A stretch of 33,936 nt of DNA from Candidatus Vecturithrix granuli (GTDB taxonomy: Bacteria; Moduliflexota; Moduliflexia; Moduliflexales; Moduliflexaceae). The stretch is from NCBI GenBank assembly GCA_000739535.1, contig DF820470.1:563437-597372 (forward strand). The letters run 5' to 3'. Numbering within the stretch: position 1 is the first letter of the stretch; each line of letters begins with the position of its first letter. The position numbers and the translations under genes are program-made. The notes beneath the pieces were generated by a model. That model searched no databases. It was not told the DNA's origin and saw only the letters and a list, made by a program, of their open reading frames with translations. Of the stretch, positions 1 through 29,795 are shown in pieces.

Positions 1-45
1 AAACTCCAGTTTCGCGGCTATCAACGAGGCGCGAAACTGGAGTTT
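1..45. repeat. GC-rich palindromic element upstream of citDE
   Basis: Positions 1-16 and 30-45 are perfect 16-base inverted repeats (arm reads AAACTCCAGTTTCGCG) around a 13-base loop. There is no T-tract, so a terminator is unlikely on the + strand. It lies just before the strong Shine-Dalgarno sequence (GGGGAGGG, about 61-68) of the citDE gene. It resembles a REP-like dispersed hairpin, but only a genome-wide search could show that. Confidence 0.7.
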
Positions 46-72
46 CGCGCTACATTTTCAGGGGAGGGAATT

Positions 73-1299
73 ATGGGAAAAACAGCAATTGCTGGAGATA
101 AAGGTCCGACTGTTCGGTCGGATTGTCTGGTCACGCTTGAAATGCGCGACAGTGGGGGGCTGGAAATAGAGCTTATCAGCAAACTTGAAACGCTGTATGG
201 TGATGCGCTCAGAGCTTTGTGTCAGGATGTCCTGAACTTTTTTGAGGTAAAACATGCCAAACTTCAAGTAGATGACAGTGGCGCGATCGATTGCGTGCTG
301 GCAGCCAGAATTGAAGCAGTTGTGAAACAATGTATTGAGACCAGGAAAGAATATCTGTTAGACATACTGCCTGAAAATCAGTATCACACTAAAAAAGACC
401 GCTATCGCCGGTCGCGCTTGTACCTTCCCGGAAATACCCCCAAATTTATGATCAATGCCGGCATTCACCATCCGGATGGAATTATCCTTGATCTGGAAGA
501 TTCTGTGGCGCCAGATAAAAAAGCTGAAGCCAGAATTTTGGTGCGCAATGCCCTGCGGGGCATAGATTTTTATGGGGCGGAACGGATGGTACGCATCAAT
601 CAAATCCCAAAAGGATTAGAGGACCTGGACTATATTGTGCCTCATCATGTCAACCTCATTCTCATTCCCAAATGTGAAACGGCGGATCAAATCCACCAGG
701 TTGACGAACGGATTGCCCGCATTTTACAAGAAAAGAACGTAGATTACCCTATTTACTTCATGCCGATTATTGAGAGTGCGTTGGGAGTGGTCAATGCCTA
801 TCAGATTGCTTCAGCCTCCAAGAATGTCGTCGCCTTAGCGATCGGTCTGGAGGATTATACCGCCGATTTAGGCACACAGCGCACGAAAGAAGGACGCGAG
901 ACATTTTTTGCCAGATGTCAGGTGGTCAACGCCGCCAGAGCCGCAGGCGTTCAACCGATAGATTCGGTGTTCTCCGATATTTCCGATATGGATGCCTTGC
1001 GAGACGTGGTACTGGAATCAAAATCCCTGGGATTTGATGGCATGGGTTGTATTCACCCACGCCAGATTCCGATGATTCATGAATATTACGCCCCGAACGA
1101 TCAAGAAATCGAAAAAGCCAAAAAGATTGTCCGCGCCTTTGATGAAGCTTCAGCAAAAGGATTAGGGGTCGTCTCACTGGGGTCAAAAATGATCGATCCG
1201 CCAGTCGTCAAACGCGCGCAGCGCACAATAGCTCTGGCGATCAATGCAGGGAAATTAGCTGAGAATTGGAAAAATAGCGATCCAGGAGTGAACACCTGA
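73..1299 (+). CDS. citDE: citrate lyase acyl carrier protein-beta subunit fusion (CitD-CitE)
   Basis: The 408-aa protein has two parts. Residues ~5-90 match citrate lyase gamma subunit (CitD), the acyl carrier: an N-terminal AGDKGPTVRSDCLVTL segment places Ser16 where CitD carries its phosphoribosyl-dephospho-CoA group, and VDDSGAIDCVLAARIEA fits the CitD C-terminal motif. Residues ~112-400 match CitE, the citryl-ACP lyase: RSRLYLPGN, LDLEDSVAPDKK, LIPKCET, LEDYTADLG and GCIHPRQI. CitE releases oxaloacetate from citryl-ACP; CitF transfers the acyl group. In characterised systems CitD and CitE are separate chains, so the fusion is the oddity. The start is set by GGGGAGGG five bases upstream. 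No citC, citX or citG is in view, so prosthetic-group synthesis must be encoded elsewhere. A citramalate lyase is the main alternative because the families are homologous. Confidence 0.88.
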   Translation: MGKTAIAGDKGPTVRSDCLVTLEMRDSGGLEIELISKLETLYGDALRALCQDVLNFFEVKHAKLQVDDSGAIDCVLAARIEAVVKQCIETRKEYLLDILPENQYHTKKDRYRRSRLYLPGNTPKFMINAGIHHPDGIILDLEDSVAPDKKAEARILVRNALRGIDFYGAERMVRINQIPKGLEDLDYIVPHHVNLILIPKCETADQIHQVDERIARILQEKNVDYPIYFMPIIESALGVVNAYQIASASKNVVALAIGLEDYTADLGTQRTKEGRETFFARCQVVNAARAAGVQPIDSVFSDISDMDALRDVVLESKSLGFDGMGCIHPRQIPMIHEYYAPNDQEIEKAKKIVRAFDEASAKGLGVVSLGSKMIDPPVVKRAQRTIALAINAGKLAENWKNSDPGVNT

Positions 1300-1354
1300 A
1301 AAGTGGAATGTGAAGAACGAAGAGCATTTTTCATTCTTCACGTTTCATTTTTCA
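1297..1354. repeat. word-iterated intergenic hairpin, period 7 (citDE/citF)
   Basis: The left arm (1297-1324) is four heptamers of type TGAAAAG/TGAAGAA and the right arm (1327-1354) is four heptamers of type TTTTTCA/TTCTTCA, giving 28-base arms around a 2-base centre. Most departures from complementarity are G-U compatible (about five) with about one true mismatch. The first unit contains the citDE stop codon TGA. An AGGAGTGA sequence at 1284-1291 lies just before the hairpin, and the citF ATG is 8 bases after it. Confidence 0.85.
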
Positions 1355-1362
1355 TTCAAGTT

Positions 1363-2925
1363 ATGGCAGTTGAATTTGTAAAAAATGCGGTGGGCCGAAT
1401 GATCCCAACCGAAATCAATGGAAAACCGGTCATCCCGTTCCAGGGAGTCGGGAAATATCGTCCGACCGGCAGAAAATATGCGCCCCCTGTTGCCACATCC
1501 GCCGATTATCCTTCGGATGGCAATAAGGTGCTGCCAGATTTGAAAACCGCTCTTCTTAAGGCCGGAATCAAAGATGGCATGACCATTTCAACTCACCACC
1601 ATTTTAGAAATGGCGACTTGTTGGTAAATGAACTGTTTCGGGTCATTGCGGAAGAAATCGGAACAAAGGATCATGTCTGGTTTCCTTCAGCCTCCTTCCC
1701 CTGTCATGAACCACTGATCAAATATTTGGAGGATGGCACGATTCATCATATCGAGGGCAGCATGAATGGTCCCCTGGGCAGATTTACATCTCAGGGGAAA
1801 ATGCGCGGCGTAGGCGTGCTTCGTTCGCATGGCGGCAGATATCAGGCCGTACAAGACGGCGAAGTGCAAATTGATATTGCGGTTATTGCGGCTCCGGAAG
1901 CTGATCCTTTTGGAAATTGCAATGGCGTCAACGGTCCCTCAGCATGCGGGTTGTTAGGTTTTGCCCTGGCAGATTCCCAATACGCCCATAAGGTGATCGT
2001 CGCGACAGATAATCTGATTCCATTCCCCTGTATCCCCTGGCAGATTCACGGAAACTACGTGGATTACGTGGTTACAATGGACAAAATAGGGATCCCGGAG
2101 AAAATTGTTTCCGGAACAACTGAAGTGACTAAAAGTCCGGATCGTCTGTATATTGCCGAATTAACCGGAAAATTCTGTGAAGCGGCCGGTCTTATTAAAG
2201 ATGGATTTTCATTTCAGGCCGGCGCAGGCGGCACATCGCTTTCAATCGGTATTTATTTTGCTGAGATCATGAAGCAAAAAGGGATTAAATCCCGTTTTGT
2301 CAGGGGCGGCAGCAATAAATACCTTGTTCGGATGCTTGAAGAAGGGCTGACAGACTATATTTTGGATGGACAGACTTTTGATCTGGATGGCGTGCGTTCC
2401 ATGCGTGAAAATCCAAGACATATCAATACCAGTCCCTTCACAAGTTATAACTATCATGGCAAAGGCAATTTTGCCACGCTTTTAGACATTGTCATTTTGG
2501 GCGCTACCGAACTTGATGTGCATTTCAACGCCAATGTCGTCACCCATTCTGATGGGTATCTGCTGCATGGAATCGGCGGTTGGCAGAATTGCCTGTTTGG
2601 CAAAACCGTGATCCTGCCGGTGCCCTTATTCCGGGATCGCATTCCGGTGATTCGCGATGAAGTGACGACCATTTGCGGACCAGGAGAATTAATTGACGTG
2701 GTCGTGACAGAACGAGGGATTGCCATTAATCCGCTTCGCAAAGATTTGATCGAAGCCACAAAAGATTCAGGGCTTCCGATCAAAACAATTCAAGAATTAA
2801 AGGCTGAAGCTGAGAAAATTTGCGGGAAACCGCAAAAACCCCAATTCACCGAGAAAGTGATTGCCGCTATCAAATGGGTTGACGGCACGGTGATAGATGT
2901 TGTGAGGCAGGTAAAAGAGAATTGA
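1363..2925 (+). CDS. citF: citrate lyase alpha subunit (citrate:acetyl-ACP transferase)
   Basis: This 520-aa protein matches CitF, which swaps acetyl for citryl on the acyl carrier domain and so starts citrate cleavage to acetate and oxaloacetate. Supporting segments are STHHHFRNGD near residue 79, the Gly-rich GNCNGVNGPSACG, QAGAGGTSLSI, and RGGSNKYLVRMLEEGLTDY. Length fits the family (about 500-520). An open frame extends up to 1303, but it runs through the intergenic hairpin; the ATG at 1363 starts MAVEFVKNAVGR, as expected for the family. No Shine-Dalgarno sequence lies between the hairpin and this ATG. The nearest, AGGAGTGA at 1284-1291, is on the far side of the hairpin. It forms an enzyme with the CitD-CitE fusion directly upstream. 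Confidence 0.9.
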   Translation: MAVEFVKNAVGRMIPTEINGKPVIPFQGVGKYRPTGRKYAPPVATSADYPSDGNKVLPDLKTALLKAGIKDGMTISTHHHFRNGDLLVNELFRVIAEEIGTKDHVWFPSASFPCHEPLIKYLEDGTIHHIEGSMNGPLGRFTSQGKMRGVGVLRSHGGRYQAVQDGEVQIDIAVIAAPEADPFGNCNGVNGPSACGLLGFALADSQYAHKVIVATDNLIPFPCIPWQIHGNYVDYVVTMDKIGIPEKIVSGTTEVTKSPDRLYIAELTGKFCEAAGLIKDGFSFQAGAGGTSLSIGIYFAEIMKQKGIKSRFVRGGSNKYLVRMLEEGLTDYILDGQTFDLDGVRSMRENPRHINTSPFTSYNYHGKGNFATLLDIVILGATELDVHFNANVVTHSDGYLLHGIGGWQNCLFGKTVILPVPLFRDRIPVIRDEVTTICGPGELIDVVVTERGIAINPLRKDLIEATKDSGLPIKTIQELKAEAEKICGKPQKPQFTEKVIAAIKWVDGTVIDVVRQVKEN

Positions 2926-2976
2926 ATATTGAAAATTGAGAATTGAGTATTCAATATTCAATTCTCAATTTTCAAT
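2921..2976. repeat. word-iterated intergenic hairpin, period 7 (citF/icd)
   Basis: Eight uninterrupted heptamers: four of type ATTGANN (2921-2948) then four of type NNTCAAT (2949-2976). The best hairpin pairs 2928-2950 with 2954-2976, 23 bases with one G-U pair and a 3-base loop. The first heptamer contains the citF stop codon. Here a normal Shine-Dalgarno sequence (AGGAGGG, 2980-2986) follows the hairpin. Confidence 0.88.
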
Positions 2977-2990
2977 CACAGGAGGGAATG

Positions 2991-4175
2991 ATGTCAAAGA
3001 GAACGATCGTATTAATGCCTGGTGATGGAATTGGGAAAATTGTATTACCAGAGGCCGTCAGAGTCTTGGATGCCATTGGCTTTGAAGCTGATTATGTCAA
3101 TGCAGATATTGGCTGGGAATTCTGGTGTAAAGAAGGCAATGCGCTGCCTCAGCGCACGTTGGACATTTTAGAGCAACATAAAATTGCCTTGTTTGGAGCC
3201 ATCACTTCCAAACCAAAAGCCGATTCTGTGAAAGAACTTGCGCCAGCGTTACAGGGGAAAGGATATACCTATTACAGTCCGATTGTCGGCTTACGCCAGC
3301 ATTTTAATCTGGATCTGTGCATCCGTCCCTGCAAAACCTTCAAAGGGAACCCGCTCAATTTTATCCGCAGAGGCCCTGGCAGCATCATTGAAGAGCCTGA
3401 AGTTGATGTGGTGATTTTCCGCCAAAATACGGAAGGGCTATATTGCGGTGTGGAATGGACCAATCCACCGGATGACGTTTACAAAGCGTTAAATACGCAT
3501 CCGAAGATGAAAAATTTTGCCTGGTGTCCGAAAGAAGAACTAGGAGTGTCAACCCGTATTTTTACAAAAAAATATACCACCAGAATCGTCCGGGCAGCGT
3601 TTGAACATGCCAAAAAATTCGGTTACAAATCAGTCACACTCTGTGAAAAACCGAACGTGATCCGTGAAACCTCGGGTATGATGCTGGCAATCGCCAAAGA
3701 AGTGGCAAAGGAATATGGTGGCATAGCCCTGTGGAACACCAATATTGACGCCCAGATGATGTGGCTGACCAAAAATCCGGAGGACTACGGCGTCATCGTC
3801 GCTGGCAATATGTTTGGCGATATTGTATCTGATGGCTTTGCCGGATTAGTGGGTGGACTCGGATTTGCATGCAGCGCGAATATTGGCGGTGACATCGCCA
3901 TTTTTGAACCCACGCATGGATCGGCTCCAAAATATGCGGACTATGCAACGCCAATCATTAACCCGATTGCAATGATTCTTTCGGCCTGCATGATGCTTGA
4001 TCATCTTGGCGAAGTTGATAAAGTAACTCAAATCCGTAATGCTGTTGCCAAAGTTATCGAAGAGGGAAACGTGCGCACCTATGACATGCTGAAACTGAAA
4101 GGTTCGCCGGATGTTGTGAAACAAGGCGCTGCTTCTACCACTGAAATGACGGACGCGATTATTGCGCAACTATGA
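2991..4175 (+). CDS. icd: isocitrate/isopropylmalate dehydrogenase family, probable isocitrate dehydrogenase
   Basis: A 394-aa beta-decarboxylating dehydrogenase. Family marks are MPGDGIG at the N-terminus, YSPIVGLRQHFNLDLCIRP in the substrate loop, RQNTEGLYCGVEW, KPNVIRETSGMM, NTNIDAQMMW, the metal-binding GNMFGDIVSDGFAGLVGG, and FEPTHGSAPKYA in the cofactor pocket. The operon places it between citrate lyase and aconitases, so isocitrate/2-oxoglutarate interconversion is the best guess; isopropylmalate-type or methylmalate-type substrates cannot be ruled out by eye. Two ATGs in tandem (2988, 2991) follow AGGAGGG; the second has the better spacing (4 bases). Cofactor choice (NAD or NADP) is not clear. 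The gene is followed by a 150-base gap holding another word-iterated hairpin. Confidence 0.82.
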   Translation: MSKRTIVLMPGDGIGKIVLPEAVRVLDAIGFEADYVNADIGWEFWCKEGNALPQRTLDILEQHKIALFGAITSKPKADSVKELAPALQGKGYTYYSPIVGLRQHFNLDLCIRPCKTFKGNPLNFIRRGPGSIIEEPEVDVVIFRQNTEGLYCGVEWTNPPDDVYKALNTHPKMKNFAWCPKEELGVSTRIFTKKYTTRIVRAAFEHAKKFGYKSVTLCEKPNVIRETSGMMLAIAKEVAKEYGGIALWNTNIDAQMMWLTKNPEDYGVIVAGNMFGDIVSDGFAGLVGGLGFACSANIGGDIAIFEPTHGSAPKYADYATPIINPIAMILSACMMLDHLGEVDKVTQIRNAVAKVIEEGNVRTYDMLKLKGSPDVVKQGAASTTEMTDAIIAQL

Positions 4176-4189
4176 AAAAAGCACACAAA

Positions 4190-4301
4190 AAATAGAACAC
4201 TGATGACACTGATAACCCTGATTTTCACTGATTAAAAAAAATAGGAAACTTTCCCCAAATCAGTGTAAATCAGTCAAATCAGCCAAATCAGTGTTCTATT
4301 T
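4190..4301. repeat. word-iterated intergenic hairpin, period 9 (icd/HD gene)
   Basis: The left arm (4190-4233) carries CTGAT four times with spacing 9, 9, 10. The right arm (4257-4301) carries ATCAG four times with spacing 10, 9, 9, so the arms mirror each other. The outer 15 bases (AAATAGAACACTGAT and its complement) pair perfectly, and the CTGAT words pair throughout while the bases between them often do not. A normal Shine-Dalgarno sequence (AAAGGAG) follows before the next gene. Confidence 0.85.
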
Positions 4302-4327
4302 CTTCATACAGGAAAAAGGAGATAAGC

Positions 4328-4867
4328 ATGACAATCAAAGAACTTTGGCCGGAATTAGAGTGGATTCAGGATCAAGATTTGCGCGAAAAAACTGCCAAAA
4401 CCTGGGAATTAGCTCTGGAAAAAAGCGTATTAACCGCAGAAGATTTGCAAACCATTCCCTTTACGCTGTTAGTGCCCGTAAACGTCACCTTTATGGAACA
4501 TAAACGCTGTGTTGTACATCTGGCAAAAGTGTGCGGCGAGCGGATCAACGAATTTTTGGGCAAGGATTTGCCGGTGAATATGGATGTTGTTATTTCGGGG
4601 GCCATTCTTTGTGATGTTGGCAAACTTTTGGAATATGTGTTAGATGAAAACGGGAAAGCAGTGCAAGGCCCCTATGGTAAATATTTGCGCCATCCGTTTT
4701 CCGGAGTATCGTTAGCAGAGCAATGCGGTGTGCCGCCGGAAGTGTGCCACATCATTGCTGCTCACGCCGGAGAAGGTGATCATGTCAAACGCTCAACCGA
4801 AGCTTATATCGTGCATCATGCCGATTTTATGACCTTTTTGCCATTTAAAAGTCGGTTACAAGTCTAA
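4328..4867 (+). CDS. HD-domain putative metal-dependent phosphohydrolase
   Basis: A 179-aa protein with an HD-superfamily layout: His58 (EHKRCVVHLA), the position of the HD pair at Cys95-Asp96 (GAILCDVGK, normally HDIGK), His122 (RHPFSG), His146 (IIAAHAGEG) and Asp166 (VHHADF). The first His of the defining HD pair is therefore Cys, which could change the metal site or abolish catalysis. The substrate is unknown. It sits inside the citrate lyase/aconitase operon, 12 bases before the first aconitase gene, which suggests a role tied to this pathway (for example hydrolysis of a phosphorylated or CoA-derived metabolite); that is inference only. The start is supported by AAAGGAG about 8 bases upstream. 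Confidence 0.75.
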   Translation: MTIKELWPELEWIQDQDLREKTAKTWELALEKSVLTAEDLQTIPFTLLVPVNVTFMEHKRCVVHLAKVCGERINEFLGKDLPVNMDVVISGAILCDVGKLLEYVLDENGKAVQGPYGKYLRHPFSGVSLAEQCGVPPEVCHIIAAHAGEGDHVKRSTEAYIVHHADFMTFLPFKSRLQV

Positions 4868-4879
4868 GGGAGGAACAAC

Positions 4880-6682
4880 ATGACGCTGATTGAAAAAATT
4901 ATTGCCAATCATTCAGAAAAAAAGACAGTTGTTCCGGGCGAAATTGTGGATATTTGCATTGATGTCCGGGCGGCCCGTGATTTTGGCGGCGCCAATGTCG
5001 TTAAGAATCTTGTTGAGAATAATTTAGAAATTGCTGATACCAGCAGGACGTTTTTTACGTTCGATTGTAATCCGACCGGCTCAGATCAAAAATACGCCGC
5101 CAATCAGCAGACATGCCGGATGTATGCCCGTGATCACGGAATTCAGGTGTATGACATTGATTCAGGCATCGGAACCCATCTCGTGATTGAACAAGGACTG
5201 GCAACCCCTGGTAGCACCGTGGTTTCGACAGACTCTCATGCGAATATTTTGGGTGCGGTTGGAGCCTTTGGCCAGGGAATGGGCGATCAGGATATTGCCG
5301 CCGCCTTTGCCAATGGATCGGTCTGGTTCAAGGTGCCGAAATCAGTAAAGTTGACATTGAGCGGAAAACGCCCGGAAAACGTGTCAGCAAAAGACATTGT
5401 GCTGAATCTGCTGCATCGCTTCGGAGCGAATGAATTGTTAGGCTATTCCGTTGAATTATACGGCGCAGAGGTTGAAACGTTGAGCCTGGATGAACGTATC
5501 ACGATTGCCTCGATGGGGACCGAAATGGGGGCGATCATCGTGATGTTTCCGCCATCCCAAGCGATTATGGATTATTGCGAAGCCCGCTCAGGTAAAAAAC
5601 TTGAGATGATTCAGGCCGATGCCGATGCTGTGTATGACCAGGAGTTTGAGCTTGATCTGAGTAGTTTTGTGCCGATGGTGTCAAAGCCGGGACACCCCGA
5701 AGATACTGTTGACATCAACGAGGTGAAAAAGTCCAAAATAGACTCTGCTTTCATCGGCAGTTGCACTAACGGCAGAATGGAAGATATGCGGATTACTGCC
5801 AGGATTTTGAAGGATCGCAAGGTAGCTCCCGGTGTGGTGTTGAAAATTGTGCCGGCCACAGATGAAATCTGGAAACAGTGTCTTGAAGAAGGACTGATTA
5901 AGATCTTCAAAGACGCTGGCGCATTGGTCGGAAATGCCGGGTGTGCCGGGTGTGCTGCCGGACAGATTGGGCAGAATGGCCCCGGAGAAGTCACACTCAG
6001 CACCGGTAACCGCAACTTTGCCGGAAAACAAGGGAAAGGCAGCGTCTATTTAGCGTCTCCGGCAACCGTAGCAGCCTCGGCAGTCGCCGGGTATATCACG
6101 ACTGAAGATGATATTCCCGCAGAACCAGTGGTATTTGCCCCGGGCAAAGCTGAACAAGCAGCGGCAGCGAAGAAAAAAGCTGCGGTTGAAGCCAGACCGG
6201 TAGTCGTCGAAGGTAAAGTTTGGATTATCAAAAAAGATAATATTGATACCGATATGATTTATCATAATCGCTACCTCACGATTACCGATATTAACGAGAT
6301 GGGCAAATACACCTTTGATAATCTCAAAGGCTGGGAAGATTTTGCCAAAAAAGCTGAATGCGGCGACATTGTGATCACCGCCAAAAATTTTGGCGCCGGC
6401 AGTTCCCGGCAGCAGGCGGTAGATTGTTTCAAATCGCTTGGCATTCAAGCGATTCTGGCCGAATCGTTCGGAGCGATTTACGAGCGCAACGCGATCAATG
6501 CTGCCATGCCGATTCTCACCTATCAGAACATCGCTGAACTGGATCTGAAGGATCGCGATAAGGTGCGAGTGGATTTTGCAAATGGTACGCTCACCAATCT
6601 CGAAAACAATAAAACCGTTCAGATTACCCCATTTTCCGACGTGCAAATGGCGATTTATAAAAAAGGCGGACTGCTGGGGTAA
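4880..6682 (+). CDS. aconitase/isopropylmalate dehydratase family, fused large and small subunits (copy 1)
   Basis: The 600-aa protein fuses a LeuC-like catalytic part (residues ~1-415) to a LeuD-like swivel domain (~450-600) through an Ala/Lys-rich linker (near 425-445). The [4Fe-4S] cysteines are visible in SCTNGR and in GNAGCAGCAAG. TDSHANILGAVGAFG is the family's substrate-site segment. The small domain has NIDTDMIYHNRY and FGAGSSRQQAVDC. Operon context with citrate lyase and isocitrate dehydrogenase points to citrate/isocitrate isomerisation, but members of this branch also act on isopropylmalate, homocitrate, citramalate or dimethylmalate. The sequence differs clearly from copy 2, so the two probably do not have the same role. 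The start follows GGGAGG with good spacing. Confidence 0.82.
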   Translation: MTLIEKIIANHSEKKTVVPGEIVDICIDVRAARDFGGANVVKNLVENNLEIADTSRTFFTFDCNPTGSDQKYAANQQTCRMYARDHGIQVYDIDSGIGTHLVIEQGLATPGSTVVSTDSHANILGAVGAFGQGMGDQDIAAAFANGSVWFKVPKSVKLTLSGKRPENVSAKDIVLNLLHRFGANELLGYSVELYGAEVETLSLDERITIASMGTEMGAIIVMFPPSQAIMDYCEARSGKKLEMIQADADAVYDQEFELDLSSFVPMVSKPGHPEDTVDINEVKKSKIDSAFIGSCTNGRMEDMRITARILKDRKVAPGVVLKIVPATDEIWKQCLEEGLIKIFKDAGALVGNAGCAGCAAGQIGQNGPGEVTLSTGNRNFAGKQGKGSVYLASPATVAASAVAGYITTEDDIPAEPVVFAPGKAEQAAAAKKKAAVEARPVVVEGKVWIIKKDNIDTDMIYHNRYLTITDINEMGKYTFDNLKGWEDFAKKAECGDIVITAKNFGAGSSRQQAVDCFKSLGIQAILAESFGAIYERNAINAAMPILTYQNIAELDLKDRDKVRVDFANGTLTNLENNKTVQITPFSDVQMAIYKKGGLLG

Positions 6683-6703
6683 ATCAGGAATCAGGATTAA
6701 AAG

Positions 6704-6713
6704 AAGGAGGTGA
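6704..6713 (+). promoter_or_regulatory. perfect Shine-Dalgarno sequence separated from its start by a hairpin
   Basis: AAGGAGGTGA at 6704-6713 is fully complementary to the usual 3' end of 16S rRNA, but the next gene starts at 6770, 56 bases away. The hairpin 6716-6757 fills this gap. With the hairpin folded out, only 14 bases separate the site from the ATG. Confidence 0.65.
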
Positions 6714-6715
6714 GG

Positions 6716-6757
6716 TTACGAGTTAGGGTTTAGAAATTTCTAATTTCTAATTCGTAA
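6716..6757. repeat. word-iterated intergenic hairpin, period 7 (aconitase 1/aconitase 2)
   Basis: Three heptamers of type TTAGAAA/TTACGAG (6716-6736) abut three of type TTTCTAA/TTCGTAA (6737-6757). Arms of 21 bases pair with about 17 Watson-Crick pairs, three G-U pairs and one U-U mismatch; the centre bases would form the loop. It has the same build as the other elements of this operon with a different word. Confidence 0.85.
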
Positions 6758-6769
6758 TTTTATACAATC

Positions 6770-8554
6770 ATGGCTGGGAGAACGTATGTAGAGAAGATTT
6801 TTGACGCTCCCAAGGGGAGCATTGTGTTCAAACATCCTGACATCGTGTTATCTCACGATAATACAGCCAGCATTGAAAAAACCTTTAAAAAAATGGGAGG
6901 CGAACAGCTTGCCGATCCGGATCAACTCCTGATCGTGCTCGACCATAATGCGCCGCCCACCAACAGTAAATTGGCGAATGACTATCAACAGATTCGGGAT
7001 TTTGTCAACAAACATGGGGTGAAAAAATTCCATGATGTCGGTGAAGGGATTTGTCATCAGGTGATGTCTTACCATGCCAAACCGGGGATGATTATTGTGG
7101 GCAGCGATAGCCATACCTCGACAGCCGGCGCGTTTAATGCTTGTGCTGCGGGCATTGACCGCACAGAAACCGCCGGGCTTTGGAAAAAAGGGGAGACCTG
7201 GTTCCGGGTGCCGGAAACCATCAAAATCACCCTGCATGGAGCCTTACAAAAGCCGGTTGCCGCCAAAGACCTGGCGCTGTGGATTATCGGCATGATTAGT
7301 TCCAGCGGCGCTGATTATATGTCCATCGAATATCATGGCGACGGCGTCAAAACACTCTCGATTTCAGAACGCATGACCTTAGCGAATCTGGCCTCTGAAA
7401 TGGGCGCTAAAAATGCGGTATTTCCCCCGGATGAAGTATTGGAAGCCTTCTTAGGGACAAAAATCACCAATGGCGTCTGGGCTGATGCTGATGCGATCTA
7501 TCTCAAAGAAATTGAGATCAATCTGAACGAGATTTTTCCGGTCGTTGCCTGTCCGCACCATGTAGATAATGTCAAGGCAGTGGCTGAAGTCGCCGGCACA
7601 AAGTTGAATCAGGCCTTAATCGGCACCTGCACCAATGGTCGTTTAGACGATTTGCAGGCAGCGGCAGAAGTTCTGGCTGGCAAAAAGGTTCCGGCTGGTT
7701 TTCAATTGTTAGTGATCCCAGCTTCCCAAAAAATTTATCTGGAAGCCATGAAAGACGGGACGCTTGAAAAATTAATAAAAGCCGGCGCCAGCCTGCTCGC
7801 CCCCTCCTGCGGCCCCTGTTTGGGCACCGGACAGGGCATTCCGGCGGATAATTATACGGTTATTTCAACCGCCAACCGGAATTTTTTAGGTCGAATGGGA
7901 AACAAAAATGCCAGCATTTATCTTGGCTCACCAGCAACGGTGGCAGCCTCCGCCCTGCGGGGAGAAATTACGGATCCACGTCCGCAAAAAGGTTCCGAAC
8001 AATTCCCCTACAAAAAAGCGAGTGACGGGGTCAAAACCGTCGAAATTAAAGCTGGTGATAACCGCTATGCTGAAGGTGTTTGGGCGTATAACGACGTTGA
8101 TAATCTCAACACCGACCAGATGTTTGCGGGCAACTTAACCTACAACATCAACAGTTCGGAACCGGACAAAATTGCGCCGCACCTTTTCAAAGGTTTTGAT
8201 GACAGTTTTGCCGAACGGGTTCAACAAGGCGATATTATTGTAGCTGGCAACAATTTTGGGTGCGGCAGTTCACGCGAGCATCCTGCTGTGGGACTCGCAC
8301 ATGCCGGAGTAAAAGCCGTGATCGTGAAATCCGTGGGCCGAATCTTCTTCCGTTCAGCGATCAACCAGGGCTTGCCGATTATTGTGCTGCCGGAAGCAGT
8401 CGAGGCCTACGAGCCAGGTGATCAGATGACAGTAGATTTTGCCAAAGGATTGGTCAAGGTTGCCGGTAAAGAATTCACCTTTGCCCCGCTGCCAGACAAA
8501 TTGATGGAAATTCTTGAGGCAAAAGGTCTGGTGAATTGGATGCAAAAAAATTAA
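6770..8554 (+). CDS. aconitase/isopropylmalate dehydratase family, fused large and small subunits (copy 2)
   Basis: A 594-aa fusion of a LeuC-like part (residues ~1-400) and a LeuD-like part (~430-594). The Fe-S cysteines are in GTCTNGR and APSCGPCLGTG. GSDSHTSTAGAFNACAAG, and GETWFRVPETIKI after it, are typical of the LeuC/homoaconitase branch; the swivel domain shows NTDQMFAGN and FGCGSSREHPAVGLAHAG. It is probably aconitase or a related hydro-lyase working with copy 1 and the isocitrate dehydrogenase. Which of the two is the true aconitase cannot be told here. There is no Shine-Dalgarno sequence next to the ATG; a perfect one lies on the far side of the preceding hairpin. It is the last gene of the operon and is followed by an 11-bp hairpin at 8573-8604. 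Confidence 0.83.
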   Translation: MAGRTYVEKIFDAPKGSIVFKHPDIVLSHDNTASIEKTFKKMGGEQLADPDQLLIVLDHNAPPTNSKLANDYQQIRDFVNKHGVKKFHDVGEGICHQVMSYHAKPGMIIVGSDSHTSTAGAFNACAAGIDRTETAGLWKKGETWFRVPETIKITLHGALQKPVAAKDLALWIIGMISSSGADYMSIEYHGDGVKTLSISERMTLANLASEMGAKNAVFPPDEVLEAFLGTKITNGVWADADAIYLKEIEINLNEIFPVVACPHHVDNVKAVAEVAGTKLNQALIGTCTNGRLDDLQAAAEVLAGKKVPAGFQLLVIPASQKIYLEAMKDGTLEKLIKAGASLLAPSCGPCLGTGQGIPADNYTVISTANRNFLGRMGNKNASIYLGSPATVAASALRGEITDPRPQKGSEQFPYKKASDGVKTVEIKAGDNRYAEGVWAYNDVDNLNTDQMFAGNLTYNINSSEPDKIAPHLFKGFDDSFAERVQQGDIIVAGNNFGCGSSREHPAVGLAHAGVKAVIVKSVGRIFFRSAINQGLPIIVLPEAVEAYEPGDQMTVDFAKGLVKVAGKEFTFAPLPDKLMEILEAKGLVNWMQKN

Positions 8555-8572
8555 CAATATTATTATCCAATT

Positions 8573-8604
8573 CTGGTGATCATGCTAAATCGGATGATCA
8601 CCAG
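8573..8604 (+). terminator. possible operon-end hairpin
   Basis: Arms CTGGTGATCAT (8573-8583) and its complement (8594-8604) form an 11-bp stem with a 10-base loop, 18 bases after the stop of the second aconitase gene. No T-tract follows, so it may protect the 3' end of the message or be the remains of a repeat and not an intrinsic terminator. Confidence 0.45.
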
Positions 8605-8796
8605 GTGACTAAACGGATTAAAGGTTCTTATGACGAGCATCTGGCACATCATCTCTGTTGAACAGGCTCACCTCTCTCTGTATCAGGGCAGCAATCTGTG
8701 ATGTCAAGGGGAAAATGATGCATACGAGTTCTGTGGATTTTGCTCGAACAATCGGAGGGTGGGGTGGCAATATCCAATTTCCCCAGCAATCGCGCT

Positions 8797-8880
8797 CTAT
8801 TCTTTAATCACCATCATGATAATACCTCGTTCGCCATTGAGCATATAGTATTCTTGCAAGATTTGACTGGCAGGTTCGTA
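8797..8880 (-). pseudogene. possible C-terminal remnant of a lost gene
   Basis: Read on the minus strand, a start-less frame gives a peptide of about 27 residues beginning YEPASQILQEYY and ending in IMMVIKE before a TAG stop (8797-8799). The composition is protein-like, and its upstream end runs into the double hairpin at 8884. I do not recognise the family. It could be chance. Confidence 0.22.
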
Positions 8881-8883
8881 GTA

Positions 8884-8918
8884 GCCGCTTTAGCGGCAAT
8901 TAAACGCTAAGGCGTTTA
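8884..8918. repeat. double short hairpin, REP-like
   Basis: Two adjacent hairpins: GCCGC-TTTA-GCGGC (with one extra closing base, 8884-8897) and TAAACGC-TAAG-GCGTTTA (8901-8918). Paired small hairpins of this type are common as dispersed intergenic repeats; no second copy is in this window. Confidence 0.5.
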
Positions 8919-9100
8919 TTATGAAATAGAATCTCTCTGTGGAATGATTATGCGAACAGAGAGGAGGATGTGTCAAGGGAAAAAGCATACTTCCTGGAAA
9001 GAAAAGGCAGTATTCTCTTGACAGAGTTGCTTCTCTATAGCAACCGCAATTTAAGTTATCCAGATTTCAGCTATTCAGAAAAATTTTGAAGGAGGCTTTC

Positions 9101-15533: not shown

Positions 15534-15566
15534 AAAAACCGAGTTTTTCAAAAAACTCGGTTTTTT
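15534..15566 (+). terminator. rho-independent terminator after the BMP gene
   Basis: A perfect stem, AAAAACCGAGTTTTT (15534-15548) with its complement at 15551-15565, ends in a T-run. It would let the binding-protein message accumulate over the rest of the operon. An almost identical hairpin occurs at 29017-29049. Confidence 0.9.
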
Positions 15567-29016: not shown

Positions 29017-29049
29017 AAAAACCGAGTTTTTTCAAAAAACTCGGTTTTT
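29017..29049 (+). terminator. rho-independent terminator after the cyclase gene
   Basis: AAAAACCGAGTTTTTT (29017-29032) pairs with 29034-29049, ending in a T-run. It is nearly identical to the hairpin at 15534-15566. Confidence 0.9.
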
Positions 29050-29080: not shown

Positions 29081-29716
29081 ATGATTTCCAATAACATGTC
29101 CCAATATCCTGAAATCGAACTGAATTATCGCAATATGGAACCTCCTTTCTGTTGGAAGGATATTTTTGGCAATTCCGCGCCAGTTGAAATCGAAGTTGGT
29201 TTTGGAAAGTGTGGTTTTCTGATTCATCTGGCCGCTCAATTTCCGACAATAAATTTTTTAGGGATCGAAAAGTCGCGGAAATATTATCAGAAAGGACTCA
29301 AAAAAGTCCAACACGCCAATCTCCGCAACGTGAAACTGCTGTGGGGCGAGGCTGCTCATATTTTACAGCGATATATTAAAGATGCCTCTGTCGCCATGCT
29401 GTATGTCAATTTTCCCGATCCCTGGCCCAAAAAGAAACATGCAAAACGTCGTTTGCTCAATGCGGATTTTGCGGCAATTGCCGCCCGGAAGTTAGTTTTT
29501 GACGGATGTATCGAAATCGCCACTGATATAGAAGCGTATGCGCATGAAGCCATGAATGTATTTGATACGTGCGCCGAGTATGAAAAATTATACTATCGCA
29601 CTAATGGTCATGCGGAACCTTTGCGTCTGTCTCGCACGGAATATGAGGAAGACTTCCTCCGGCAGGGGAAAACGCTTCACTATGCAAAGTATCAGAAAAG
29701 GTGTGGAAATGTTTGA
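29081..29716 (+). CDS. trmB: tRNA (guanine-N7)-methyltransferase
   Basis: A 211-aa SAM-dependent methyltransferase that makes m7G46 in tRNA. Diagnostic segments are the SAM-binding EVGFGKCGFLIHLA, FLGIEKSRKYY (acidic loop), the hallmark YVNFPDPWPKKKHAKRRL, and the C-terminal RTEYEEDFLRQGK (family TxfE). The start at 29081 or the ATG at 29096 are both possible; no Shine-Dalgarno sequence decides. The stop codon lies inside the left arm of the hairpin that separates it from dnaG, so the last few codons are encoded by that element. Confidence 0.92.
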   Translation: MISNNMSQYPEIELNYRNMEPPFCWKDIFGNSAPVEIEVGFGKCGFLIHLAAQFPTINFLGIEKSRKYYQKGLKKVQHANLRNVKLLWGEAAHILQRYIKDASVAMLYVNFPDPWPKKKHAKRRLLNADFAAIAARKLVFDGCIEIATDIEAYAHEAMNVFDTCAEYEKLYYRTNGHAEPLRLSRTEYEEDFLRQGKTLHYAKYQKRCGNV

Positions 29717-29795
29717 GTATTTAGGTGTTTAAGGGTTTGAGTGCTTAATAGAAAGTACTAAACACTTAGACACCTAAATACTCAAACATTTCCAC
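29703..29795. repeat. word-iterated intergenic hairpin, period 8 (trmB/dnaG)
   Basis: Built of octamers such as TTTGAGTA, TTTAGGTG and TTTAAGGG on the left and their complements on the right. The outer 26 bases (29703-29728) pair perfectly with the matching right end (to 29795), then the stem continues with about one G-U pair, one mismatch and one bulge to roughly 43 bases. The trmB stop codon (29714-29716) is within the left arm. A weak Shine-Dalgarno-like AAAGGTG (about 29697-29703) is on the far side of the hairpin from the dnaG ATG, which is 8 bases after it. Confidence 0.88.

Follow-up and report, generated by a model that had tools for sequence, protein, structure and literature searches.

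Periodic palindromes at gene junctions of Candidatus Vecturithrix granuli and other bacteria: dispersed copies and probable re-wording by slippage and template switching

A stretch of 33,936 nucleotides from Candidatus Vecturithrix granuli (hereafter the window; G000:C14:563437-597372, in a genome of 8.38 Mb in 21 contigs) contains five intergenic palindromes whose arms consist of a short word repeated in tandem, and the origin of these elements is considered here. Four of them lie in one operon, which comprises a citE-like gene (73-1299), citF (1363-2925), a gene of the isocitrate/isopropylmalate-dehydrogenase family (IDH; 2991-4175), an open reading frame (ORF) of 179 aa without a Pfam match (4328-4867), and two aconitase-family genes (4880-6682 and 6770-8554). 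An earlier reading made from the letters alone (the sequence-only reading) had placed palindromes with periods of 7, 7, 9, 7 and 8 at these five places and had found four of the five operon junctions to be occupied. Both statements are borne out, and the fifth junction, between the 179-aa ORF and the first aconitase gene, is a gap of 12 nt (4868-4879, plus strand).

The five sites, numbered along the plus strand, are arranged as follows. Site 1 (1297-1354; arms 1297-1321 and 1330-1354; word TTCATTN/NAATGAA, period 7) begins on the TGA stop codon of citE (1297-1299) and ends 8 nt ahead of the citF start (1363). Site 2, at the citF/IDH junction (2921-2976; arms 2928-2951 and 2953-2976; word ATTGANN/CAATNTT, period 7), takes in the citF stop codon (2923-2925), and the IDH start (2991) follows 14 nt downstream. 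Site 3 occupies the junction between IDH and the 179-aa ORF (4187-4304; arms 4187-4233 and 4258-4304; word ACTGATNNN, period 9), with ends AATAGAACACTGAT...ATCAGTGTTCTATT at 4191-4300. Site 4, between the two aconitase genes (6716-6757; arms 6716-6738 and 6735-6757; word TTTCTAA/TTAGAAA, period 7), lies 12 nt ahead of the next start (6770). Site 5, between a putative methyltransferase gene and dnaG (29703-29795; arms 29703-29738 and 29760-29795; word CTCAAACA/TTTGAGTN, period 8), runs over the final 14 nt of the preceding ORF (stop codon 29714-29716) and leaves 8 nt before the dnaG start (29804). As the upstream stop codon falls at or within the first word in sites 1, 2 and 5, the term "junction" takes in the end of the ORF. 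An Rfam search of the window returned tRNA only.

The periodicity was judged by shuffling paired positions, a procedure that preserves both complementarity and composition. The best lags for sites 1 to 5 were 7, 7, 9, 7 and 8, with permutation p values of 0.0025, <0.00025, <0.00025, <0.00025 and 0.0025, respectively. Such hairpins are abundant elsewhere in the same genome, which was sampled as 20-kb stretches: 800 kb contained 179 short-loop hairpins scoring at least 15, against one in Markov-shuffled sequence, and 139 of the 179 fall in non-coding DNA, which makes up 13% of the sample. Sixteen of 257 tested hairpins were periodic at p<=0.0025 (0.6 expected), with lags of 7 (nine hairpins), 9 (six) and 8 (one), and their words include GTGACTAAA, ACTGATNNN, TTGAGTGT, CACAGATTT, GCAAAGCTC and ATTCGTGTC, as well as TCAGTAG, TGAATGT, CAATTGA and GGGAGTA. 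Moreover, a second genome, G002, yielded 21 periodic palindromes in 436 kb, and elements of this kind are present in several phyla. Our favored explanation, for which we put the chances at about even, is that all five sites belong to a heterogeneous class of palindromes between cistrons, each arm being a tandem array of a 7-9-nt word, and that this class is subject to dispersal as well as to slippage and homogenisation by template switching.

The sequence-only reading held further that the sites are not copies of one element and suggested a process that makes each hairpin from a local word, and it named dispersed copies of the same words as the observation to look for against this view. Between sites the first statement stands: no two of the words match, searches with sites 1 and 4 returned nothing but the sites themselves in their own genome, and a single family behind all five was rejected. 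Within sites it does not, as copies with unrelated surroundings were found for sites 2, 3 and 5. Site 2 has many, on both strands (the best 89% identical, most near 80%), site 5 has several (for example, at L287 and L289), and site 3 recurs at about 29 places. The 27 copies of site 3 that were extracted all start with AATAGAACAC (at most 2-3 mismatches) and finish in its complement; many extend outward as TAGACATTATCGGA, and the flanks are otherwise unrelated. Conserved terminal inverted repeats, the mark of a miniature inverted-repeat transposable element (MITE), were found in this family only. The two arms of site 3 are not interchangeable, identity within elements being 0.00 and 0.11 at two inner columns, against 0.32 between elements. 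Because the inner spacers are opposed in every copy and the ends are conserved, the copies descend from one ancestor with distinct arms and did not arise in place.

These results bear directly on a purely local origin, in which slippage and snap-back synthesis would build each hairpin where it stands, out of a short local word and with no dispersal. The absence of copies of sites 1 and 4, the stop codon at or within the first word of sites 1, 2 and 5, and the different words carried by the same junctions in different phyla (see below) would all suit such an origin. It fails for at least three sites, given the dispersed copies of sites 2, 3 and 5, and the ends and arm asymmetry that site 3 has by descent, and the same words recur across phyla; we regard it as quite improbable. 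Outside the window's genome, the end ATCAGTGTTCTATT recurs in L159, a genome from a different family; an IMG/VR contig (L303) has the entire site 3 element in an ACGGAT version, and a Bacteroidales palindrome (L065:3719-3789) has a word similar to that of site 4. At one mismatch, the site 3 word was present in 11 of 375 genomes surveyed, in several of them as long direct CTGATCGGA-type arrays, not palindromes. Long direct nonamer arrays of CTGATCGGA or CTGATTCGA, seen in G130:C74 (L165) and G219:C5 (L160), are apparently unrelated to the palindromes.

Alternatively, the palindromes may be ordinary non-autonomous mobile elements of several unrelated families, similar to MITEs or to repetitive extragenic palindromes (REPs); their periodicity would then be an accident of the founder, and symmetric ends would be needed by a mobilising enzyme or a bound protein. 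In favor of this, the site 3 family is dispersed, falls into subfamilies and has conserved ends. Its copies also cluster locally: there are 4 close pairs (within 2.5 kb) among the 29 copies, against 0.28 expected. At one locus (L188), three copies occupy consecutive junctions of one co-directional gene run, and in two of these the stop codon of the preceding gene falls within the first word. Nesting points the same way, since in L195 (506-608) and L203 (498-642) the loop of another periodic palindrome (CCAAACACGCCAAA, CAGTATTCAGTAATC) holds a site 3-type element. Outward growth of a palindrome into its local flanks, as by fold-back in place, was rejected as an explanation; it is absent in most flanks, and the signals at L195 and L203 represent nesting. 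On the other side, no target-site duplication was seen: neither compact nor extended copies have a flanking repeat of at least 3 nt above permuted pairs, duplications of 1-2 nt being below what the flank comparison can judge. The REP tags GTAG and CGTC are absent at the feet of the palindromes, where the sites end in TGAA, ATTG, AATA, TTAC and GTGG.

The two arms of an element are coupled. In 25 oriented copies of site 3, 18 non-consensus letters in the outer 19 nt are common to both arms; permuting arms among elements gives 7.2+-2.1, and a count as high was reached in 0 of 5000 permutations. The middle and inner parts of the same arms show no excess. For the site 2 family, the score of an element's own arms was 17.3, against 12.5+-0.7 for arms of other elements, and the own partner ranked first in 10 of 15 cases, the own score being somewhat inflated by a comparison that began from score-picked hairpins. 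In both families, private variants are mirrored across the two arms of single elements. Confinement of the coupling to the outer 19 nt is what symmetric ends of a mobile element would also produce.

A more direct view was obtained from two sister species, G002 and G003, which share the order of the window's species, are about 92-94% identical and are collinear over long stretches. Their period-7 and period-9 elements occupy the same junctions and drift at the background rate. The elements of a period-8 family, GTRTGGRAG, also occupy junctions common to both species (flanks 91-96% identical), and differ in unit number, length and word order. At G002:C16:18090-18251, for example, both outer arms read TGTAGTATGGGGGTGTGGGAGTAGGGAGGTGTGGG in G002, and both read TGTAGTATGGAAGTGGGGGGGTAGGGGAGGTATGGG in G003. 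In either species the two arms mirror each other exactly over the outer 35-36 nt, so that five substitutions and one 1-nt insertion between the species are found in both arms. Over all period-8 elements, both partners had changed in 8 pairs that continue to pair, where about 1 is expected; non-periodic hairpins and period-7 elements contained 1 such pair each. Several mirrored changes since a recent common ancestor, the signature of quasi-palindrome correction, were thus found in the period-8 elements of these two species only. The rewritten arm is 90% identical to its own other arm, against at most 85% to other full-length G003 copies and 87-89% to the best in G002, short pieces excepted, and on these comparisons a donor copy is not evident. 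At G002:C17:4627, the higher-order repeat is 32 nt in the left arm and 16 nt in the right, which may be read as slippage in each arm separately. No ortholog of L212 was found in G003.

An account by mobile elements leaves the mirrored, in-place rewriting of period-8 arms unexplained, as well as the different higher-order repeats in partner arms and the 7-9-nt design common to unrelated words in several phyla. Together with the missing target-site duplications, these points make it rather unlikely in our judgment that mobility is the whole explanation.

The operon itself offers a comparison across phyla. Relatives of its CitF are found at 74-82% identity in several phyla, and the citE-citF-IDH-orf-aconitase arrangement is shared, with 80-82% CitF identity, by the window genome and by Delongbacteria, Cloacimonadota, Bacteroidota and Anaerolineae (L018, L028, L029 and L032). 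The operon looks horizontally exchanged; a foreign composition of the operon was not evident in L028. The 179-aa protein is 70-79% conserved across phyla in the same operon, and the aconitase of the Anaerolineae seems to be divided between two ORFs. Three Anaerolineae metagenome-assembled genomes (MAGs; L028, L029 and L032) have the same gene order, and the corresponding junctions are likewise filled by palindromes, built from other words. The citE/citF junction has ACCGCGAAG-type palindromes directly behind the stop codon in all three, and the citF/IDH junction has CGCAAAGA in L028 and a GACCGNG/GACGG type in L029 and L032. At the third junction, the words vary among CAGAG, CAAAG and ACGGAT, and at the fourth, among CGAAG, GGATTAG and GGTATTAG. 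Comparison of junctions between relatives, which the sequence-only reading had proposed, lends support to its wider idea: in the Anaerolineae operon the word changes while the architecture stays, and in Delongbacteria and Bacteroidota the junctions are empty. No such palindromes were found in the operons of Delongbacteria (L018) or Bacteroidota (L019, L090-L092), where the gaps measure -11 to 82 nt and, in L018 and L019, citE and citF overlap. In Cloacimonadota, some of these junctions are occupied by other palindromes that are not periodic (GTTCCCAAGC...GCTTGGGAAC).

The position of the elements is equally characteristic. Using mechanical ORF starts, we found 18 of 24 periodic palindromes in the window genome, and 21 of 26 in G002, between co-directional genes. 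Once the element is removed, a median of 12.5 nt (window genome) or 26 nt (G002) is left of the gap, against background medians of 100 and 77 nt, and most element edges lie within about -15 to +30 nt of a stop codon. This placement raises the possibility that the palindromes are selected intercistronic RNA hairpins, in which the stem tunes mRNA stability or the coupling of cistrons, only pairing matters, and mirrored changes are compensatory. Position just behind stop codons of co-directional genes would agree with this, as would the strong computed RNA folds (z of -6 to -14). On the three contigs from Anaerolineae, hairpins occupy 14 of 15 gaps within the operon, against 1 of 15 other gaps, in what is a small sample of contigs; the contrast is weaker in the window (4/5 operon gaps against 6/19 others, p=0.12). 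Nonetheless, homologous operons of Delongbacteria and Bacteroidota do without a hairpin at these junctions, compensatory changes are not in excess in period-7 and period-9 elements, and a mirrored insertion with five substitutions is better explained by one templated event than by compensation step by step. Intrinsic terminators, with a G+C-rich stem and a T run, were considered and rejected, sites 1-4 being unlisted in a terminator scan of positions 1-9000, which also tells against an RNA function. We hold selection for RNA structure to be improbable as the general cause. Location behind the stop codon requires no function, because the DNA between a stop codon and the next ribosome-binding site is a place where insertions are tolerated.

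Slippage and template switching probably shape and re-word these palindromes, and dispersal also occurs. In the mechanism that we propose, each genome would hold its own repertoire of word families. Copies disperse, as is seen for three of the five words, and are retained for the most part directly downstream of stop codons, where co-directional genes lie close together, presumably because retention there spares coding sequence and ribosome-binding sites. Slippage would multiply the word inside each arm. The nascent strand may then fold into a hairpin, switch template and copy one arm onto the other, as in quasi-palindrome correction, so that the palindrome would persist while its word drifts or is swapped whole. 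In the mRNA, the predicted outcome is a strong stem-loop between cistrons. The preference of the sequence-only reading for slipped or template-switched synthesis over transposition was partly upheld: mirrored private variants, the rewriting between G002 and G003, and separate expansion of arms favor it, whereas dispersal, nesting and the failure of a local-word origin do not. We would infer that mirrored change acted on the window's own sites too, for which the coupling of arms within the genome provides indirect support. That a general, still-running process of slippage and hairpin template switching builds and re-words intercistronic palindromes in many bacteria, with architecture persisting while sequence turns over wholesale, even as an operon moves between phyla, we suggest only tentatively.

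Several observations weigh against this explanation. Active re-wording is seen in one family only, outside the window's genome, and mirrored changes were not in excess in the period-7 and period-9 elements of G002 and G003. A mirrored change could also arise by replacement of the whole element from another copy. Sites 1 and 4, being without copies, could be local inventions, and the lack of target-site duplications bears on the agent of dispersal here as well. In addition, alignment within low-complexity arrays is uncertain, and the genomes compared appear all to be MAGs or drafts. Should the process be confirmed, bacterial junctions of this kind would preserve a natural record of hairpin-templated mutation, and would advise caution against taking mirrored changes as proof of a selected RNA structure. 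Short intergenic palindromes are usually put down either to mobile elements or to a function at the level of RNA or protein binding.

Heptanucleotide arrays are known from the intergenic DNA of cyanobacteria as short tandemly repeated repetitive (STRR) heptamers. STRR sequences are described as tandem arrays, mirrored arms being outside the definition, and are set apart from the present elements by that description. Calothrix heptamers are mentioned by Rehm et al. (2015; PMC4692102), whose heptamers of Xanthomonas and Nostoc, GGGAATC and GGGGA(C/T)T, are the closest precedent. These lie between aligned ORFs, often at most 50 bp from the stop codon or overlapping it, are rare between divergent genes and variable between sister species; in Xanthomonas, 70-75 sites per genome are convergent heptamer pairs that form inverted repeats (PMC4692102). 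The present elements, with periods of 7-9, are likewise intergenic arrays of short words between aligned ORFs and near stop codons. The precedent involves one G-rich word per genome, discussed as G-quadruplex-forming, in mostly single arrays (PMC4692102), whereas the window's words are AT-rich and have no repeated G-tracts. The present case is further distinguished by its many words per genome, its periods of 7, 8 and 9, the mirrored arrays of the elements studied, a test of arm coupling and the comparison of an operon across phyla.

The TAACTGA repeats of Beggiatoaceae, Cyanobacteria and Bacteroidetes comprise 169 sets, one of them indirect, mostly just upstream of starts (MacGregor 2015, PMC4679880). 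They too are intergenic heptamer arrays in unrelated phyla without an evident mechanism of transfer, and, unlike the present elements, are direct and not palindromic (PMC4679880). REPs and REP doublets (REPINs), associated with the transposase TnpA-REP (REP-associated tyrosine transposase, RAYT), are also short extragenic palindromes dispersed within one genome (PMC3116915, PMC3733652, PMC2817692). The elements studied here differ from them in having no GTAG/CGTC end tag, an internal 7-9-nt periodicity, many words, and about 7-30 copies per site family, not hundreds. Template switching is known to make arms alike in yeast and E. coli, one event altering several bases (PMC8604942, PMC7202029). 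The present case resembles this quasi-palindrome correction in that imperfect inverted-repeat arms would be made alike by a single templated event (PMC7202029, PMC8604942). Such correction is known as a mutational hotspot at single loci, whereas here it is proposed to keep and re-word a repeat class genome-wide. The literal words of the sites had no match in the literature searched, which says little.

Other hairpins were noted in the course of the analysis. A sixth palindrome of the window, AAACTCCAGTTTCGCGGCT/AGGCGCGAAACTGGAGTTT, lies upstream of citE (1-45, no strand assigned); it is non-periodic and belongs to a different dispersed family. This palindrome, AAACTCCAGTTTCGCG..., represents a second family (ATGTAGCGCGAAACTCCAGTTTCGCG...), of which the 800-kb sample holds many copies that often surround a short loop with GCTGTCAACNATG or its complement. 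Another palindromic family, TGAAACTACAAGGATTTTGTGTAGGAAGGATTC, is long and nearly perfect (L102, L109, L111, L113 and L118; for example, L111:14136), and a further family, GGTAGTGGTTAAATGGTAAGTGATGC, is built around an inner CCGCTCGTTGAGCGAAGTCGAAACGAG hairpin (L112, L118, L128 and L132). Finally, two near-identical terminator-like hairpins, AAAAACCGAGTTTTT/AAAAACTCGGTTTTT, are located at 15534-15565 and 29017-29049 of the window.

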